DNA of 44,387 nt from an uncultured Pseudomonadota bacterium. GTDB lineage: Bacteria > Myxococcota_A > UBA796 > SXON01. The translations under genes and the position numbers were made by a program. This document shows, piece after piece, positions 1,194 to 29,829 of the stretch. The stretch's first letter is position 1; each line of letters starts with the position of its first letter. The notes beneath the pieces are model-generated. The model did no database searches. It saw only the letters and a program-made list of their open reading frames with translations, and was not told the origin of the DNA. The stretch is taken from NCBI GenBank assembly GCA_903921785.1, contig CAIXRH010000329.1, positions 1-44,387 of the forward strand. The letters run 5' to 3'.

Positions 1194-4100
1194 CTACTTG
1201 AACTCCACCGGCGCCGGCGGCGCCTTCACCGGCACCACCGGGTGCGCCGCCAGCTCCGCGAGCAGCAGCTCCACGGCCTTCTCCACCGACGGGTCCCGGC
1301 CGGCCGCCACGAGCTCCGGGCGGTCCACCACCTCCACGTCGGGGGCGACGCCCTCGTTCTCCACGGCCCACTTCCCGTCGTTGCCGAGGAAGCGGAAGGT
1401 GGGCACCTCGATGGCGCCGCCGTCCACGAGGCCGGGCTGGCCGGAGAGCCCGATGAGGCCGCCCCAGGTGCGCGTGCCGACGAGCGGGCCGAGCTTCAGC
1501 TCGCGGAAGTAGTAGGGGAACGCGTCGCCGCCGGAGCTGGAGAGCCCGTTGATGAGCATCGCCTTGGGGCCGCGGTGGCTCAGGAGCGGCGTGGGCGCCG
1601 GGTCCTGCCCGCGCACCTTCCACCAGCTCAGCGGCTGGCGGCCGAGCAGCTCCGCCATGCGGTCGGGGATGAACCCGCCGCCGTTGTAGCGGTCGTCGAT
1701 GATCAGCGCCTCCTTCGCCACCAGCGCCGGCATCCACCGCATCAGCGCGTTGTTGCCCTCCTGCGCCGTGTTCGGGACATGGACGTAGCCGATGCGTCCA
1801 CCCGAGAGCTTGTCCACCAGCGCGCGGCGCTCGGCCGTCCAGGCGAGGTAGCGGAGGTCGCGCTCGCTGGTGAGCGTACGTACCAGTACGGTGTGGGCGC
1901 CGTCTTCGGAGGGCCTGGTGTTCACCCGGAGCTCCACGAGCTGGTCGCCCTTGCCGTCGAGGAGCTGGTACACGTTGGCGACCGAGCTCGCCGGCACGCC
2001 GTCCACCCCGAGGAGCCAGTCGCCGACGTGCACGCCCACGCCGGGCTCGGTGAGCGGCGAGCGGGTGGCGGAGGCCCAGTTCTCCCCGGCGAAGATGCGG
2101 GTGATCCGGAACGGACCCCGTCCGCCCGGCGAGGGGGCGAATTCAGCGCCGAGCAGGCCGCTCTCCTTGCGCGGGGGCGCGTCGGGGTCGGGCGCCCGCT
2201 CCACGTACACGTGCCCGGCGTTCGCTTCGCCGGCCAGCTCGTGGAGGACGTAGTCGAGGTCGCCGGGGGTGGTCGCGGCGGCGGCGAGGGGGGCGTAGCG
2301 GTCGCGGATGGCCTCCCACCGCGGCAGCCCGCCGTGGACGCCGGGCTCGTAGAACCAGTCGCGGAGGATGCGCCACGCGTCGGTGTACTTCTGACGGCGC
2401 TCCACCATCGGGTCCACGCGGAGCTGGACTCCGGCGACGGGCACCACGGCGGCGGCGAGGTCCTGGTCCGGCTCCGCCTTCACGATCGACCAGCCGGCGT
2501 CGGCGTGCACGAGGAGGTGGGCGCCGTCGCCCGAGAGCTGGAAGTCCGCCACGTTGGCCGCGACCTTCCCGGCCTTCCGGTCCGCGATGGACCAGGTGAC
2601 GAGGTCGTGGGCCGGCGCGGCGATCGTGCCGCCGAGGGCAAAGACGGTCGTGGTGTTGGCGGCGAGGGCGCCGTAGTCCCCCGCGGGGAGGTCGAGGGCG
2701 ACGACGCGGTCGGCGAAGCCGGCGGGCTCCAGCTTCACGGCGGCGGGCTTGGGCGCGTCGGCGGGCTTGCCCTTCTTCGCGGGCGCGGTCGTTGCGGCGG
2801 TCGTTGCGGAGGCGGCCGCAGCGCCCTCGTCCGGCTTCGGAGCCCCCGCTTCGTCCGAGCGCGGCGGCGCGAAGGCGGGCCCGTCGGCGGCGACGCTCGC
2901 CGCGTACACCCGGGTGGGGTGGGTGTAGAGGTAGTTCTCCTCGAAGGAGCTCCAGGTGAACCCCGAGAAGTCCCGGTTGGAGAGGAAGTACAGCCACCGC
3001 CCCTGCGGGTCCCACGCCGGCGCCCAGTCGTTCTCCAGCCCGGACGTGAGCGCCCGCGGCGCCGCGCCCGCGGTCCACGCCCAGATCGTGGACAGGTACG
3101 CCTCGTTCGCCTTCACGTAGGCCAGCCACTTCGAGTCCGGCGACCACGCCACGTCGCGGATGTCGGAGGTGGCGCCACGGTCGACCTCGGTGAGCGCCCC
3201 GGAGGCGACGTCGAGCACGCGGAGGCGGAGGTCCTTGTCAGCGAAGGCGAGCTTCGCGGCGTCGGGCGACCACACCGGGGTGAACTTCCACGCCCCGCCC
3301 CCTCGGGTGAGCTGCCGCGGCGCGCCGGAGCCGTCCGCGGGGCGCACCCACACCTCGTACTCGCCGGTCGCGTCGGAGAGGTAGGCGAGCTGCTTGTTGT
3401 CCGGCGACCAGCTCACCCCGCGCTCCCGCGCCTGGGGCGAGTTGCTGAGGTTCCGGGCGGGACCGTCCTTCGCCGGCACCGTGAGCAGCTCGCCGCGGGC
3501 GGCGAACGCGACCCGCGCCGCGTCCGCGGAGAGGGACACCGACTCCACGGTGGCCTCCGCGTCCACGAAGTGGGGGAGGCTGCGCGGCGCGTCGTCGGCG
3601 AGGCGCACGGGGACGCGCACGGCCTCGGCCGCGCCCGCGTCGAAGCGCCACAACCAGCCGCCCTGCTCGAAGACCACCGCGTCCGGCCCGCCGGAGGTCC
3701 AGAGCACGTCGAAGTCGGTGAAGCGGGTCAGCGCCCGCGACGCGGTGGACTCCAGCTCCGCGTTCGCCGGCATCGCGTAGAGGTTCAGCGTGCCGGTGCG
3801 GTCGGAGGCGAAGTACACGGTGTCCCCGATCCAGGCGGGGTTCTGGTCCATGCCCACGTAGCGGGTGAGCTGCGCGGACGTGTGATGCACGAGGTCGTAG
3901 CTCCACACCTCCGGCGCGCGCCCGCCCCGGTACCGCTTCCACCCCCGCCAGTCGGCGTCGATCGGGGTGTAGACGAAGTGGCTGCCGTCGGGCGAGAGCG
4001 AGCCGCCGCCCGTCTCCGGCACCTCCATCGGCGCCTCCATCCCCCCGGCGAGGGGCACGAGGTACGGCTGGCCGCCGCGTTCGTCGAACGGGAGGCGGTT

Positions 4101-4589
4101 CATGCGCACCACCACGTTCTTCCCGTCCGGCGTCCAGTCGAGCACGCGGTAGTCGGTCCCGCCCCGGACCGGCAGCTCGCCCACGTCGTTGTACCAGGTG
4201 AGCTGCCGCGCCACGCCGCCAGCCGCCGGCACCACCCACACCTGACGGTTCCCGGTGTACTCGGCGGAGAACGCCACCCACTGGCCGTCCGGAGAGAACT
4301 TCGGGTAGAGCTCCTCGCCCGCGCCCGAGGTGAGCCGCTGGGCGGTGCCGCCGGCGCGGTCCACGATCCAAAGATCGCCGCCGTGGACGAAGACGATCTG
4401 CGTGCGGCTCACGTCGGGGTAGCGGAGGATGCGGGCTTCGTCCGGCGCGGGCGCCGGGGAGCCGGCGGCGGACACGGCGCCCGGGGCGGCGGCGCCCGGC
4501 GTCCCGGCGAGAGCCTGAGTGGCGGGCCCGGCCGCGGCGACCGCGGCGAGCATCAAGGTGGCGGCGACGACGGAGCGACGGAGGCGCAT
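1194..4589 (-). CDS. Tricorn-like protease (beta-propellers, PDZ, S41 peptidase)
   Basis: This 1131-residue protein is predicted to degrade peptides in the periplasm. I chose the ATG at 4589 because it begins a clean signal peptide (MRLRRS, then an Ala/Val-rich core ending TQALAG); the frame continues upstream to 4682, but that part is Pro-rich and unlike a signal. Residues about 50-350 and 380-650 contain repeated blades with SPDG, WSPD and LSPDG motifs, the WD40/PD40-type propellers of tricorn proteases. An Ala/Lys/Pro-rich linker follows, then a core region, a PDZ-like segment (VGVHVGDWLLGVDGVPA) and an S41 catalytic domain with RYNGGG and LSSSGGDAF. The serine before GGD (about residue 1019) is the likely nucleophile. 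It is divergent from the response regulator at 4715. Confidence 0.9.
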   Translation of the reverse strand: MRLRRSVVAATLMLAAVAAAGPATQALAGTPGAAAPGAVSAAGSPAPAPDEARILRYPDVSRTQIVFVHGGDLWIVDRAGGTAQRLTSGAGEELYPKFSPDGQWVAFSAEYTGNRQVWVVPAAGGVARQLTWYNDVGELPVRGGTDYRVLDWTPDGKNVVVRMNRLPFDERGGQPYLVPLAGGMEAPMEVPETGGGSLSPDGSHFVYTPIDADWRGWKRYRGGRAPEVWSYDLVHHTSAQLTRYVGMDQNPAWIGDTVYFASDRTGTLNLYAMPANAELESTASRALTRFTDFDVLWTSGGPDAVVFEQGGWLWRFDAGAAEAVRVPVRLADDAPRSLPHFVDAEATVESVSLSADAARVAFAARGELLTVPAKDGPARNLSNSPQARERGVSWSPDNKQLAYLSDATGEYEVWVRPADGSGAPRQLTRGGGAWKFTPVWSPDAAKLAFADKDLRLRVLDVASGALTEVDRGATSDIRDVAWSPDSKWLAYVKANEAYLSTIWAWTAGAAPRALTSGLENDWAPAWDPQGRWLYFLSNRDFSGFTWSSFEENYLYTHPTRVYAASVAADGPAFAPPRSDEAGAPKPDEGAAAASATTAATTAPAKKGKPADAPKPAAVKLEPAGFADRVVALDLPAGDYGALAANTTTVFALGGTIAAPAHDLVTWSIADRKAGKVAANVADFQLSGDGAHLLVHADAGWSIVKAEPDQDLAAAVVPVAGVQLRVDPMVERRQKYTDAWRILRDWFYEPGVHGGLPRWEAIRDRYAPLAAAATTPGDLDYVLHELAGEANAGHVYVERAPDPDAPPRKESGLLGAEFAPSPGGRGPFRITRIFAGENWASATRSPLTEPGVGVHVGDWLLGVDGVPASSVANVYQLLDGKGDQLVELRVNTRPSEDGAHTVLVRTLTSERDLRYLAWTAERRALVDKLSGGRIGYVHVPNTAQEGNNALMRWMPALVAKEALIIDDRYNGGGFIPDRMAELLGRQPLSWWKVRGQDPAPTPLLSHRGPKAMLINGLSSSGGDAFPYYFRELKLGPLVGTRTWGGLIGLSGQPGLVDGGAIEVPTFRFLGNDGKWAVENEGVAPDVEVVDRPELVAAGRDPSVEKAVELLLAELAAHPVVPVKAPPAPVEFK

Positions 4590-4623
4590 GGGCACTTCGG
4601 GGGGCGGCGGCAGCGTATCCGCG

Positions 4624-23952: not shown

Positions 23953-25494
23953 CTACTCCCACTTCACCTCGAGCGCTTTCGGCGCCCCGAGGCTCCAGAG
24001 GTTGCCGCCGGGCGCCCAGCTCACCGACCCGTCGGCGTGGGTGATCGCCAGCTTGTAGAGCTCGGCGTCCGCGCCCAGCTTCACCCGGCCGGGCACGACC
24101 GGCGCCGCGGCGGGGCTCCAGTCGCCGAGCGCTGCGGTGCTGCCGACCAGGCGCAGGGTGTCGCCGGGGGCGAGCGGCGGGGGGTTGGGGACGGTCACCT
24201 TCGTCCAGCCGGCACGGAGCTTCGGCGCCTCTCCGGTCGGCTTCTCGACGCTGACGCTGTGGGGCGCCAGGGTGAGGCCGAGGAAGCCGACGGGCCCGTC
24301 GCCGCCGTTGTAGGTGACCCACCGAGTGTCGGTCGCGGAGTGGCGCTCCACGACGAACCAGTCGTCGCCGAGGCCGAGAGTGCGGGAGGCGCCGTCGCGG
24401 AGGGCGGGCGTGGTCTTGCGGGTGAGCGCGAGGTTGCGGATCAGCGTGGTTCGCGCCCGCCAGGCCGACTCTTCTTCAGGCGAACCGGCCACCCAGCGCA
24501 TGTCCGCGCGGTTGTCGGGCTCTCCGGCGCCGGTCGCGCCCCACTCGGTGCCCCAGGTGATCATCGGGCGGCCGCGGAGCGCGAAGAGCAGCTCCAAGGC
24601 GAGGTCCACCCGGGCGGCGTCGTCGTGGCAGGCGGTGGTGATGCGCGAGGTGTCGTGGTTGTCGAGGAAGGTGATCCAGGCGTCGCCGGGGAGGCCGGCG
24701 GAGCGGTCGATGACGGCGGGGATCGCGGCGGCCGGCTTGTCGTCGCAGACGACGTCGCGGAGCGCGTAGTGCAGGGGGAAGTCGAAGGCGCTGTCGAGGT
24801 GGTCGGCGGCACGTTCGTCCATCACGGTCTTCACGTTGCCGTCGAAGACCTCGCCCCAGAGCTGGAAGCTCCCGGGGGCGTGCGCGTGGACGTCCTTGGC
24901 GATCTTCGCGACGAACTCGGGGTCGAGGTGCCGCACGGCGTCGAGCCGGAACGCGACGGGCTGGGCCTTGTGGAGCCAGTGGTACGAGGCGTCCCGGAGC
25001 CAGGCGTAGACCTCGGGGTTGCCCTGGTCGAGGTCCGGCAGCCCGTGGACGTCGTGGGTGCGCACCTCGTCCGGATCGTCCCAGTGAACGATGGGGCCGA
25101 AGTGGTGGAACCACGTGGGACGCGCGGCGACCCAGGCGTGGTCCGGCGCGACGTGGTTGTAGACCATGTCGAGCACGAGGCCGATCTTGCGGTGGTGGAG
25201 CGCGTCCACGAGGTGGCCGAGGTCGGCGTCGTTGCCGAAGCGAGGCTCCAGGCGGTCGAGGTCCTCGGTCCAGTAGCCGTGGAAGGCGCCGTTTTCGTAG
25301 AACTTCGTGTCCCGCATCTTGGCGATGGGGCCGAGCCAGAGCGTGTCCACGCCCAGGGCGGCGAGCTCGTCCACGTGGCGGGTGAGGCCGGCGAGGTCCC
25401 CGCCGTGGAACGCCTGGGGATCAGCGGGGTCCACCCCGAGGTCGTTGGTCGGGTCGCCGTTGGCGAACCGGTCGACCAGGAGGAAGTAGATCAC
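23953..25494 (-). CDS. GH13 alpha-amylase with C-terminal CBM20-like starch-binding domain
   Basis: The GTG at 25494 overlaps the previous stop (GTGA) and begins the first barrel strand directly (IYFLLVDRFANG), so no signal peptide is visible. The 513-residue enzyme has all GH13 regions: DMVYNHV, FRLDAVRH with nucleophile Asp185, LWGEVFDG with acid Glu215, and FLDNHD with Asp281. The C-terminal 70 residues have the starch-binding pattern STAALGDWSPAAAP, YKLAITH and VSWAPGGNLW. It would cut alpha-1,4-glucans. As the last gene of the operon, and without a signal, it may act inside the cell or be exported by another route. A start further upstream would lie inside the lipoprotein gene. Confidence 0.9.
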   Translation of the reverse strand: MIYFLLVDRFANGDPTNDLGVDPADPQAFHGGDLAGLTRHVDELAALGVDTLWLGPIAKMRDTKFYENGAFHGYWTEDLDRLEPRFGNDADLGHLVDALHHRKIGLVLDMVYNHVAPDHAWVAARPTWFHHFGPIVHWDDPDEVRTHDVHGLPDLDQGNPEVYAWLRDASYHWLHKAQPVAFRLDAVRHLDPEFVAKIAKDVHAHAPGSFQLWGEVFDGNVKTVMDERAADHLDSAFDFPLHYALRDVVCDDKPAAAIPAVIDRSAGLPGDAWITFLDNHDTSRITTACHDDAARVDLALELLFALRGRPMITWGTEWGATGAGEPDNRADMRWVAGSPEEESAWRARTTLIRNLALTRKTTPALRDGASRTLGLGDDWFVVERHSATDTRWVTYNGGDGPVGFLGLTLAPHSVSVEKPTGEAPKLRAGWTKVTVPNPPPLAPGDTLRLVGSTAALGDWSPAAAPVVPGRVKLGADAELYKLAITHADGSVSWAPGGNLWSLGAPKALEVKWE

Positions 25495-26003
25495 CCGCCG
25501 CTCCGCAGCCACCCGTCGAGCAGCTCGCCGACCCGCCGCGAGACGACCGGCGCAGCGGCCTCCACGGCGTCCGCCTCGCGCTGGTGGTGGTAGCGGAGGA
25601 AGACCGGCACGTCGAACGCCGCTTCCTGCACATGCTTGCCGCCCACGGCGAGGGTCACCTTCACCCCGACGGTCCAGCGGTACTGCCCGCTGAGCTCGGA
25701 GTAGAAGACGGGGGCCGTCTCCACCAGGAGCGTCGCGTCCGTGCCGAGCACCTCCAGCCGCTGATCGGTCTGCCGCTTGTCGGTGAAGGCGCCGAGCTTG
25801 GCGGGTGCTTCTTCCAGGGTCGGCGAGAGCTTCCGCAGCCGGGCTTCGGCGAGGAGCGCGTCGTCGAGGGCCTTGGGGGTGTCGGACGCTGCGGCGTCCC
25901 CCGCGGCGTCGAGCACCCCGACGACCGTGAGCGGCCGGTCGGCGCCGGTGAGCACCGGGCCGGTCGGCTTGATGCAGGCGAGGAAGAGAAGGCTCAGAAC
26001 CAT
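25491..26003 (-). CDS. Small lipoprotein of the alpha-glucan operon
   Basis: The 170-residue product starts at ATG 26003. The N-terminus MVLSLLFLACIKP contains lipobox LAC, giving lipidation at Cys10. The mature part has a helical middle and a C-terminal beta pattern (GQYRWTVGVKVTL, KHVQEAAFDVPVFL), similar in shape to small outer-membrane accessory proteins, but I do not recognise the family. It overlaps the porin gene by 10 bases and the amylase gene by 4. Its position suggests an accessory to the porin or a glucan-binding component. Confidence 0.8.
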   Translation of the reverse strand: MVLSLLFLACIKPTGPVLTGADRPLTVVGVLDAAGDAAASDTPKALDDALLAEARLRKLSPTLEEAPAKLGAFTDKRQTDQRLEVLGTDATLLVETAPVFYSELSGQYRWTVGVKVTLAVGGKHVQEAAFDVPVFLRYHHQREADAVEAAAPVVSRRVGELLDGWLRSGG

Positions 26004-27436
26004 GCTTCCGCCTCGAGCGCCAGCACGTTGTGCCAGTGGCGCTCCACGTTGCCGAAGTCGTTGTACTGGTCGAGGGAATCGACGAAGGAGTTGCCGAACG
26101 CGTTGTTCTGCGTGCTGTACTGGACGCCGTAGAGGAGCCGGAGGCTGGGGCGGGTGTAGATGCCCGGGCCGAGCGGGTTGAGCACCACGCCGGCCTTCCC
26201 CTGCGCGGTGACCCGGGTGTCGTCGTCGCCGTACTCCAGGCCCACCGAGTCGGCGGCGCCGTCGGTGCTGGCGAAGAGCGAGTCCTTGTGGTCGCGGAAG
26301 GTGTTCCCGTTGTGGGAGACCTCCTGGGCGAGGCTACCTTCGAGGAGCAGGTGGACGGTCGGTGAGAGGTACACCTGGTTCCGGAGGACCACGGACATGA
26401 AGGTGCGGTCGTCGTCCGTCGGCTTGAGGTCGTTGTCGCCGTCTTCGTAGTCGCCGTAGAGGCCGGCGAGCGCAATGTCCCAGCGGTCGGGCACCACAGC
26501 GAGCTGGAGCTCGTCGCCCACGTTGAGCTGGGTGCGCTCGTCGGTGAGGTCGTGGAGGTAGATGTCGATCGACTCGCCGTCGTAGGTCTCGGTGGTGTAC
26601 GACTTCGGGTGGAGCAGGGTGTAGTTCGCGTAGAGCGAGTTCCACCGCAGCGGGCCGAAGCCGCCGAAGCCGAGGTAGCCGACCGCCTTCCACGAGGCGG
26701 CGTCGGTGGCCTCGGGGTTGGGGAAGTCGGCGAGCTGGCCGGGGTGGTCCATCACCCAGGACTGCACGACCTCGCCGCGGGCGTAGTCTTCGTAGTCCAC
26801 GCCCGGGGTGCGGTACGGGGCGAAGCGGTTCCCGAGCACCATCGGCTCGTAGTAGCCCTGGCCGCCCGCGCCGATCTCGAAGTGGTCGGCGACGTTCACC
26901 CGGGCGGTGATGCCCCCGGAGAGCACGGTGTTGTACTCGGCGCCCTTGAGGTTCCAGCCGGCGTCGCCGCCGCCGACTGTGAGCTCGAACCCGGGCGTCT
27001 GGTACCGCGCCTGCGCGCCCACCGTGTCGAAGAGCACCTGCGCCGGGCGCATGTCGTAGAGCCCGAGGTCCCCGAAGTTGCTCTCCAGGGTGCCGAGCCG
27101 CCAGGTGACGTCCTGGAGGCCGACGTTGCCGGCCTGTGCGTAGAGCTGCGAGAGCCGCAGGTAGGCGAGGGAGCCGTTGCCGGCGTCGGCGTTCGCGACC
27201 GTGCCGCCCTCGATCTTGGCGTGGATGTCGGTCCACGGGGCGAGGCTGCCGGGCTTCCGCTCGAGGATGCCCTGGCGGAGCTCAAGCGCCGCGTAGGGGC
27301 CCTCGTTCATCAGCCGGCCGTAGAGGTTCCAGTAGCCGAGCTTCCCGTCGCCGCCCTCCATGTCGGGGCGGGTCATGATGCGCACGTAGCCGCCGACGTC
27401 CGCCGCCGCGGCGATCGCTGCGAAGAGGAGGATCAT
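25994..27436 (-). CDS. Outer-membrane carbohydrate porin, maltoporin-like
   Basis: ATG 27436 overlaps the debranching enzyme stop (ATGA). The 480-residue product has a short signal (MILLFAAIAAAA), then GGYVRIMTRPDMEG and a long series of beta strands ending in an aromatic-terminated strand (ALEAEAWF), as required for outer-membrane insertion. Segments such as RPSLRLLYGVQYS near the C-terminus resemble the LamB family. Many Asp/Tyr/Trp residues in loops fit sugar binding. Its place between a surface debranching enzyme and an amylase makes uptake of maltodextrins likely. No TonB box or plug domain is visible, so passive or facilitated diffusion is expected. Confidence 0.82.
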   Translation of the reverse strand: MILLFAAIAAAADVGGYVRIMTRPDMEGGDGKLGYWNLYGRLMNEGPYAALELRQGILERKPGSLAPWTDIHAKIEGGTVANADAGNGSLAYLRLSQLYAQAGNVGLQDVTWRLGTLESNFGDLGLYDMRPAQVLFDTVGAQARYQTPGFELTVGGGDAGWNLKGAEYNTVLSGGITARVNVADHFEIGAGGQGYYEPMVLGNRFAPYRTPGVDYEDYARGEVVQSWVMDHPGQLADFPNPEATDAASWKAVGYLGFGGFGPLRWNSLYANYTLLHPKSYTTETYDGESIDIYLHDLTDERTQLNVGDELQLAVVPDRWDIALAGLYGDYEDGDNDLKPTDDDRTFMSVVLRNQVYLSPTVHLLLEGSLAQEVSHNGNTFRDHKDSLFASTDGAADSVGLEYGDDDTRVTAQGKAGVVLNPLGPGIYTRPSLRLLYGVQYSTQNNAFGNSFVDSLDQYNDFGNVERHWHNVLALEAEAWF

Positions 27437-29829
27437 TGTGCCTCCTCCAGGAGCACGACGCTGGAGCCGACCGCGGTGTAGCTCCCGCCCACGACCGTGC
27501 CGTCCGTGGGGGTGATGTTCGCCGACGTGCGCAGGTCGTGGCCTTCGCCGGCGAGCCACGCGTCGTCGTCGAAGTACGCCTGGGTGTCGACCACCCGCGT
27601 CCACGAGCCGGAGGGTAGGGTGAACGCCGTGTCCGACCTGTTCATGTTCAGGAGCATCACGACACCCGGCTTGCCGGACCACGGCTGGCCGCTCGCGCCG
27701 TCGTCCGCCCAGTGGACCATCAGCGCGCGCGAACCCCAGTCGGGATCGCCGGAGTTGCCGGTGTTGCGCCATTGGAAGGGCATCGACCCGCCGTACTCCT
27801 TCGGGGCGAAGGCGTAGGTGTGGGAGAGCCGGAAACGCACCAGCTCGCCCACGAAGTCCTTCATGCGCCACCGTTCGTCGTGGCTCTCCCACTCGCCCCA
27901 GCGGAACCAGTTGAACTCGTTGTCCGCGCCGGTGGAGTAGGCGTTGTTGTTGCCGTACTGGGTGCGCAGCCACTCGTCCCCGCCGTAGATCATCGGGGTG
28001 CCCTCGGAGACCATCATCGCCACGTAGAGGTCGCGCATGAGCTGGCGTTTGAAGGCCTCGGCGTCCATCCCCCAGTCGCGGGAGCGGTTGTTGCTCTCGC
28101 CGCTGTCGGTGTCGCACCAGGGGGAGGCGGCGTCTTGGCAGCAGGTGGGGTTGAGCGGCCCGCAGAAGTTGTTCTTCTCGTCGTAGGAGAGCAGGTCGTA
28201 CATCGTGAAGCCGTCGTGGCAGGTCACGAAGTTGACCGAGTGGTAGGGCTTACGATCGTTGTTCCCGTAGCGGGCCGCGGAGCCGGTCATCACCCCGCCG
28301 CCATCGATGCCGTTCTCCGCGGAGTTCATCACCCAGCCGTCGTTGTTCACGATGGAGCGCCACCAGTCACGGAAGCTCGCGTTCCACTCGCCCCAGCCGG
28401 TGGCGTCGTCGGTCGACGACTTGGGGAAATTCCCGATGGAGGTGTAGCTGCCTCCCGCGGTCCACGGCTCGGCGATGATGCGGGTCTGGTACTGCTGGAG
28501 CACCGGGTCGTCCGCGATGTCCTGGAGCACGGTCTGCGCGGGATCGTCCCAGTTGTTGTAGTCGCCGTCCTTCTCGCCGAGGATGCCGGCGAGGTCGAAC
28601 CGGAAGCCGTCGATGTGCAGGTCCTCGACCATGTAGTGCAGCGAGTCGAGGATCAACCTCCGCATCGGGGTGTAGTTGGGGCGGGTCTCGTTGCCGACGC
28701 CGGTGTTGTTCCAGTAGCCGGTCTTGTCGGTGGAGAGGGCGTAGTAGCTGTCGTTGTCGAGGCCGCGGAGGTTGTAGACCGTCGCCGCCTCGACCGTGTC
28801 GAGGTTGTAGGTGCCCGAGGCGCCGAGCACGGCGTCCGTGTAGATGCGATCGCGCCAGAGGCCGCCTTCGCCGGTGTGGTTGTAGACCACGTCCACCACC
28901 ACCTCGATGTTCTCCTGGTGCAAGGCGTCCACCATCGCCTTGAACTCGTCCATCACCGCGCTCGGCTCGGCGTCCGCCGCGTAGTCGGCCGAGAAGCTGA
29001 GCTCGGGCGCGAAGAAGCTGATGGTGTTGTAGCCCCAGTAGCCGCCGTCGAGCGGCTTTTCGTGGATCGGCAGGAGCTCCACCGCCGTGATCCCCAGCTC
29101 CGCAAGGTAGTCGGCGTGCTCGGCGAGGCCGCGGAAGGTGCCCGGGTGATCCACCCCGAGGACGCCGTTGGCGGTGAACCCCTTGGGGTGCACCTCGTAG
29201 AGCACCAGGTCGTTCCAGTCGTGGCCTTCGAGCGTGCCGTCTTCGCGGCCGGTGCGCCAGGCGGCCTCCCCGTCGCTCCACGCGTACTCGCTCTCGGCGA
29301 CAAGGCTTTTGGCGGAGGCGCCCCAGGTGCACTGCTCACGGCGGCTCTCGCCGGTGCCGGCAGAGCCGCGGCCCCAGTCGTGGTCGCGGGTGAGCGCCTT
29401 GCCCCAGGGGTCGGTGAGCAGCTTGTTGGGGTTGAACCGGTTGCCCGCGCCATCCACATCCGCGACGTAGCCTTCGAGACTGCCGCAGTAGAAGTCGGAG
29501 GTGTAGGTCCAGTTCGGGCCCCAGGCCACGAACGCGTAGGCCTGGCCGACGCCCACGCCCTCCACGTAGAGGTTCCACACGTCCCCGAAGCGCTCCATCG
29601 GGAAGCGTTGGGTGGGCTGATCCGCCTCCGGGTCGTCGAAGATCAGTAATTCCACGCGCTCGGCCGCCTTGGCGTACACCCCGAAGTTCACCCCGCGATC
29701 CACCACCGTGGGCCCGAGCACGTTGAGCGCCGCCACGTCCTCCGTGGCGAGCGACGGCGCGACCGCTTCGGTGTGGTACAGGCGGGTGTACTCGTCCGGC
29801 GTGCAGGCGAGGCTGAGGAGGAGCACCAT
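27433..29829 (-). CDS. Lipoprotein GH13 isoamylase / glycogen-debranching-type enzyme
   Basis: The 798-residue product starts at ATG 29829 with MVLLLSLACTP, a lipobox giving lipidation at Cys9 and anchoring the enzyme in a membrane, probably the outer one. Residues 30-150 form a CBM48-like beta domain (VDRGVNFGVYAKAAERVELLIF). The barrel has the isoamylase regions DVVYNHTGEGG, FRFDLAGILG (nucleophile Asp412), IAEPW (Glu454) and VTCHDG (Asp539), plus EWNASFRDWWR typical of debranching enzymes. Six or so Cys, including CCQDAASPWC, suggest disulfides and an exported location. It would cleave alpha-1,6 branches of glycogen or starch. It is the first gene of a four-gene operon. Confidence 0.93.
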   Translation of the reverse strand: MVLLLSLACTPDEYTRLYHTEAVAPSLATEDVAALNVLGPTVVDRGVNFGVYAKAAERVELLIFDDPEADQPTQRFPMERFGDVWNLYVEGVGVGQAYAFVAWGPNWTYTSDFYCGSLEGYVADVDGAGNRFNPNKLLTDPWGKALTRDHDWGRGSAGTGESRREQCTWGASAKSLVAESEYAWSDGEAAWRTGREDGTLEGHDWNDLVLYEVHPKGFTANGVLGVDHPGTFRGLAEHADYLAELGITAVELLPIHEKPLDGGYWGYNTISFFAPELSFSADYAADAEPSAVMDEFKAMVDALHQENIEVVVDVVYNHTGEGGLWRDRIYTDAVLGASGTYNLDTVEAATVYNLRGLDNDSYYALSTDKTGYWNNTGVGNETRPNYTPMRRLILDSLHYMVEDLHIDGFRFDLAGILGEKDGDYNNWDDPAQTVLQDIADDPVLQQYQTRIIAEPWTAGGSYTSIGNFPKSSTDDATGWGEWNASFRDWWRSIVNNDGWVMNSAENGIDGGGVMTGSAARYGNNDRKPYHSVNFVTCHDGFTMYDLLSYDEKNNFCGPLNPTCCQDAASPWCDTDSGESNNRSRDWGMDAEAFKRQLMRDLYVAMMVSEGTPMIYGGDEWLRTQYGNNNAYSTGADNEFNWFRWGEWESHDERWRMKDFVGELVRFRLSHTYAFAPKEYGGSMPFQWRNTGNSGDPDWGSRALMVHWADDGASGQPWSGKPGVVMLLNMNRSDTAFTLPSGSWTRVVDTQAYFDDDAWLAGEGHDLRTSANITPTDGTVVGGSYTAVGSSVVLLEEAQ

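Follow-up and report, generated by a model that had tools for sequence, protein, structure and literature searches.

A conserved Myxococcota operon linking a maltoporin-like barrel, a small lipoprotein and two predicted alpha-glucan enzymes

Gene content and conservation of the operon

We analyzed a contig of 44,387 nucleotides (CAIXRH010000329.1, assembly GCA_903921785.1; this whole stretch is referred to here as the window) from an uncultured bacterium deposited as Pseudomonadota and placed by GTDB in Myxococcota_A (UBA796; SXON01), and we focus on a four-gene operon on its minus strand. The first gene encodes a debranching enzyme, a GH13 and CBM48 lipoprotein of 798 aa (29829-27433; ATG start, signal MVLLLSLAC with lipobox LSLAC), followed by a maltoporin-family outer-membrane barrel of 480 aa ending in a C-terminal Phe (27436-25994; ATG). 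Next are a small lipoprotein of 170 aa with lipobox LFLAC and a predicted alpha/beta outer-membrane-lipoprotein fold (26003-25491; ATG) and a leaderless GH13 alpha-amylase of 513 aa with a C-terminal CBM20 domain (25494-23953; GTG start). All three junctions overlap: by 4 bases in an ATGA between the debranching and barrel genes (27433-27436), by 10 bases between the barrel and lipoprotein genes (25994-26003), and by 4 bases in a GTGA where the lipoprotein stop overlaps the amylase start (25491-25494). Plus-strand open reading frames (ORFs) flank the operon at both ends. An earlier reading of the window, made from the sequence only, had described an operon with these same overlaps, and the ORF coordinates confirm it.

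The cluster recurs widely in the phylum. A search of 94 relatives' genomes identified the lipoprotein in 45, and in all 40 of the loci that were read out it adjoins the barrel, mostly in the same four-gene order. Scanning 84,980 species genomes with a barrel alignment yielded 80 loci, including those of Myxococcus xanthus, Pyxidicoccus, Archangium, and Kofleriaceae; the two sets share some genomes. Among the scan loci, the barrel is followed by the lipoprotein domain in 72/72 cases with enough downstream DNA and has an amylase downstream in 61 of the 67 with room for one, while a debranching gene lies upstream on the same strand in 62/73. Because the debranching, barrel, lipoprotein and amylase genes recur in the same order phylum-wide, the cluster is not a chance arrangement; the conserved order expected by the sequence-only reading is borne out, and the genes are not scattered in relatives. 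The amylase is not downstream in seven loci of the lipoprotein-search set, and some amylase-less loci carry a different GH13 gene upstream of the debranching gene. Five records titled Klebsiella pneumoniae or Comamonas (L074, L111, L112, L122, and L130) have barrels of myxobacterial type and are likely mislabelled; the barrel of L130 groups with Myxococcus.

The debranching enzyme contains CBM48 (42.7 bits) and GH13 domains, with GlgX as its best model and GlgX, Isa1, and isoamylase as its relatives in the PDB. Since its score against the NCBIfam GlgX model (403 bits) falls under the equivalog cut-off of 640.9, we describe it as GlgX/isoamylase-type and assign no subfamily. Its lipobox is also found in relatives, in agreement with its description as a lipoprotein debranching enzyme. 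The barrel scores 32.1 bits with Pfam LamB (PF02264), for which the cut-off is 25.1, and the match covers the C-terminal half only. An AlphaFold2 model built from 37 relatives (mean predicted local distance difference test score, pLDDT, 86.7) comprises about 18-20 strand segments by DSSP, and its top Foldseek matches are the maltoporins of E. coli (1mal, E 1.6e-14) and Salmonella (1mpr, template modelling (TM) score 0.70 on the target), followed by ScrY. A sequence search of the PDB with profiles of the barrel and the lipoprotein returned nothing useful and did not reach the maltoporin structures. Because sequence profiles miss these structures although the modelled fold matches them, the barrel is, on its model, a remote maltoporin, as its earlier description as maltoporin-like had implied.

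The small lipoprotein and candidate recoding in relatives

No match for the small lipoprotein was found among Pfam or curated NCBIfam families; an identity as MalM (PF07148) was considered and rejected for lack of a profile match. The lipid-anchor Cys is invariant in 24 diverse relatives. A structural model (mean pLDDT 91.8) resembles PqiC/DUF330, TolB-N, GNA1162, LptE, CsgG, and PelC in Foldseek (E about 1e-5, prob 1.0, with modest TM-scores of roughly 0.3-0.57). In its model, the window lipoprotein has a small alpha/beta fold similar to that of these proteins; sequence kinship with them is undetectable, and its counterparts in relatives, unlike them, are joined to an amylase. Two of these proteins, LptE and PelC, are held by a lipid anchor and act together with outer-membrane barrels, which suggests by analogy that the small lipoprotein may dock to the barrel.

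In about 30 loci, including those of M. xanthus, Pyxidicoccus, and Kofleriaceae, the lipoprotein and amylase are encoded by one ORF, whose product begins with the lipoprotein as a lipidated domain that a linker connects to the rest of the amylase; all sampled Myxococcus and Pyxidicoccus genomes have this form. A tree of the barrels separates two clades (support 100/98). All fusions fall within the one with 45 members; the other, with 31 members, lacks them and includes the window, and the lipoprotein there is split off. By its sequence, the small lipoprotein is thus the N-terminal amylase domain of M. xanthus and its kin. The earlier statement that it has no recognised family stands as far as Pfam and NCBIfam are concerned, though the protein is no orphan. 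One single-contig genome (L159) encodes a free lipoprotein and then a second similar domain fused to the amylase (3521-4609, in lipoprotein-strand coordinates).

In four further loci, three from one lineage (L105, L107, and L144) and one from another (L137), the amylase domain is out of frame with the lipoprotein domain. Between them is a linker with a run of exactly ten A (A10; L105:11978, L107:11981, L144:12014, and L137:12310), the sole run that long in each 18–21 kb locus; GC content is 61–64% in three of the four. One extra A or a -1 shift would give a complete fusion, while the unshifted product would be a free lipoprotein. The barrel tree forces two origins, and the arrangement therefore arose twice. 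Slippage on runs of nine A is known from bacteria (PMC1088944), and we regard the A10 tract as a candidate site of programmed slippage with a predicted fused product. It may alternatively reflect phase variation or assembly error, against which stands its identical length in 4/4 genomes. A C9 tract right behind the lipoprotein domain at a contig end (L131:6492) could be another slippage site.

Eleven Archangium-like genomes (L117, L118, L120, L140, L164, L165, L166, L167, L169, L170, and L172) have a +1 frame change at one codon inside the amylase part of the fused gene, right ahead of the catalytic nucleophile. The site, CGGAGGTGG(C/G)TTC, also written CGGAGGTGGCTTC, is otherwise invariant in 11/11 genomes. 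In it, an almost perfect match to the Shine–Dalgarno sequence is paired with CTT (10/11) and then CGA (8/11). Catalytic residues downstream are kept. The ratio of nonsynonymous to synonymous differences (pN/pS) is 0.59 downstream of the site and 0.49 upstream, values that are uncorrected, near saturation and weakly informative. Assembly error is unlikely because eleven divergent genomes share the site, and we consider it a candidate Shine–Dalgarno-stimulated ribosomal frameshift with a predicted product. One locus nested in the Archangium-like clade (L114) has a split gene and no shift.

Both sites thus pair a conserved frame change with a signal in divergent genomes, the +1 site through one motif in 11 genomes and the A10 tract in four genomes of two lineages. 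The prfB site has a Shine–Dalgarno-like AGGGGG three bases before CTTT (PMC12421855). The +1 site is similar in joining a Shine–Dalgarno-like element to a CTT slip site; it is dissimilar in that the element abuts the slip codon, changing the spacing, and in that no stop occupies the A-site. The A10 tract likewise recalls the A9 slippage of T. thermophilus dnaX, where an A-tract lies between two products. Unlike both prfB and dnaX, the recoding proposed here lies in a glycoside-hydrolase lipoprotein gene, and in relatives of the window's species.

The amylase of the window's genus

The earlier assignment of a GH13 amylase with a starch-binding domain is supported by the catalytic residues D185/E215/D281, invariant in 34/34 relatives, and by CBM20, which falls below cut-off in the window protein and is matched in 14/15 members of the relatives' alignment. 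Neither a signal peptide nor a lipobox was found in the window amylase, whose start codon falls on catalytic beta-strand 1. An overlooked start further upstream that would add a signal peptide was considered and rejected, as none is in frame. Export signals are missing from the amylase in 12 genomes, comprising the window's genus and one sister genus, while split lineages beyond these immediate kin mostly give the amylase its own lipobox or signal peptide. The first codon of the leaderless form is GTG in eight of the 12 genomes and TTG in the other four, for which the joint chance is about 2e-6 given codon usage and ignoring phylogeny; the homologous codon is GTG or TTG in 0/22 other relatives. 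Most of these starts have a poor Shine–Dalgarno match upstream, in keeping with translation that is coupled to that of the lipoprotein gene. Two loci (L029 and L031) have an opposite-strand Uma2-like gene, identified by eye, between lipoprotein and amylase with the amylase start residue unchanged, and the amylase must therefore have its own start there. Given a GTG/TTG start at the catalytic strand that is kept beyond this insert, the amylase of the window's genus reads as leaderless and probably cytoplasmic.

The surface location earlier proposed for the whole set is consequently not supported for the amylase; for the lipoproteins, surface and periplasmic orientation cannot be told apart from sequence, which leaves the claim unproven. 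An unlikely alternative is that the entire set works extracellularly, with the amylase exported as a recoded lipoprotein fusion (by frameshift or stop readthrough) or by another unconventional route. It would accord with the fusion or separate signal that nearly all other lineages give the amylase, with the apparent recoding of the lipoprotein-amylase gene in other relatives, and with the pair C250 and C289, which is invariant in 34/34 amylases including the leaderless ones. Loss of cysteines as a mark of cytoplasmic life was rejected on account of this invariance. Against export as a fusion, the junctions within the genus vary (-1 overlap, in-frame TGA or TAG, and a 600-bp insert) with no common slippery site, fusion in L031 is blocked by further stops and the opposite-strand gene, and every leaderless amylase begins with GTG or TTG, both start codons. 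On similar grounds, recoding at the junction in the window itself was rejected as the leading interpretation: the frame relation is not constant among sister species, they have no slippery motif in common, and a fusion is impossible in L031.

It is also improbable that gene fission left the window's genus with a lipoprotein that is only an inert lipid anchor and lacks a function in its own right. Although it corresponds to the anchor domain of fused amylases, it is kept beside the barrel in all 72 scan loci with enough downstream DNA, even in lineages whose amylase carries a separate lipobox or is absent downstream; L159 carries both a free and a fused copy, and identity within the window's genus is 50-62%.

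A proposed alpha-glucan uptake route and its meaning

Searches of the whole window genome returned 0 matches to SusD (PF07980) and none above cut-off to SusC (TIGR04056), consistent with the earlier description of a porin-based system and with no SusC-like receptor adjacent outside the window. The genome does encode one protein with MalE-like and MalF-like domains, adjoining a phosphoglucomutase-family gene (contig C44; L194 2585-4849, minus strand), and GspD above cut-off, making carriage of the lipoproteins to the surface by a type II secretion system (T2SS) possible by analogy with PulA. In sister species (L068-L074), a pair of exported GH13 lipoprotein and GH15 genes lies directly downstream of the operon and convergent with it, and the same pair is found on another contig of the window genome (C128; L195); it may have taken over the outside work.

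The enteric maltose/pullulan system comprises LamB, MalEFGK, MalM, and the PulA lipoprotein with its T2SS. The window genome resembles it in having a LamB-fold porin and a lipoprotein debranching enzyme, with the MalE-MalF-like protein and GspD elsewhere in the genome. Departures from it include the grouping of enzymes and porin in one operon, a GlgX/isoamylase-type enzyme rather than a pullulanase, a lipoprotein that lacks a MalM match and is fused to amylase in relatives, and the joining of MalE and MalF on one chain. With the Bacteroidetes Sus system (SusA-G) the operon shares the grouping of several lipid-anchored glucan enzymes with an outer-membrane pore; it differs in having a non-TonB maltoporin-type barrel and no SusC or SusD. 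The design therefore resembles LamB/Mal–Pul rather than Sus, and the view of the operon as a compact alternative to Sus, borne out as to the absence of SusC and SusD, has a precedent in the enteric scheme. Sus-like uptake by an unlinked TonB-dependent receptor, with the barrel merely leaking small products, is highly improbable, since generic TonB-receptor-like sequences occur in the genome but no SusD or SusC-like protein above cut-off does, and the barrel, a maltoporin by its fold, is a constant member of the cluster.

We hypothesize that the operon is best seen as the form taken in Myxococcota by an alpha-glucan uptake system built around a maltoporin, with a probability of about 0.68 for the whole explanation, including the uptake route, the splitting off of the tether and the cytoplasmic amylase. 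The debranching enzyme, anchored to the outer membrane, would trim starch or glycogen branches, the LamB-like pore would pass linear maltodextrins across the outer membrane, and a MalE-MalF-type ATP-binding cassette transporter would take them up at the inner membrane. The small lipoprotein would dock to the pore and, in many Myxococcota, hold the amylase next to it as a tether. That tether would have become a separate protein in the window's genus, and the amylase, translated alone from GTG/TTG and coupled to the lipoprotein stop codon, would most likely finish maltodextrins in the cytoplasm, while the separate amylase-glucoamylase pair of contig C128 would do the outside work. Several points weigh against this explanation: a disulfide between C250 and C289, should there be one, would leave room for export of the leaderless enzyme by an unconventional route; docking is an analogy with LptE and PelC at the modest TM-scores given above; MalG and MalK partners were not located, no search having been aimed at them; and starch, glycogen or maltodextrin as substrate is predicted from protein families only.

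The most interesting part of the operon, and one beyond the reach of a first reading, is the modular link between lipoprotein and amylase. Among the papers searched, we found no account of the porin–lipoprotein–amylase cluster or of recoding in an amylase gene; the Sandaracinus genome paper lists amylases and a debranching enzyme under neighbouring accession numbers and leaves a porin or lipoprotein unmentioned (PMC5010890). Taken together, gene splitting, the A10 tract, the +1 shift and the duplication in L159 suggest selection for a lipoprotein without amylase, and the recoding suggests controlled output of free versus amylase-bearing forms. It is an even bet that the lipoprotein domain is a pore partner needed in both forms, and that Myxococcota adjust the ratio of the two in no fewer than four ways at a single gene: fission into two genes whose stop and start overlap (the window's genus), a duplication giving free and fused copies, transcriptional slippage or a -1 shift at A10, and a Shine–Dalgarno-stimulated +1 shift (the Archangium-like clade). 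If so, programmed recoding would have a new role in the cell.

More generally, a Myxococcota-wide lipoprotein family can now be named by its partner and position, and myxobacteria, many of them predators, gain a defined candidate outer-membrane route for storage glucans, testable in M. xanthus, which has lipoprotein and amylase in a single gene. The two conserved frame changes in a carbohydrate-enzyme gene may offer a natural experiment on why a tether protein is needed with and without its enzyme.

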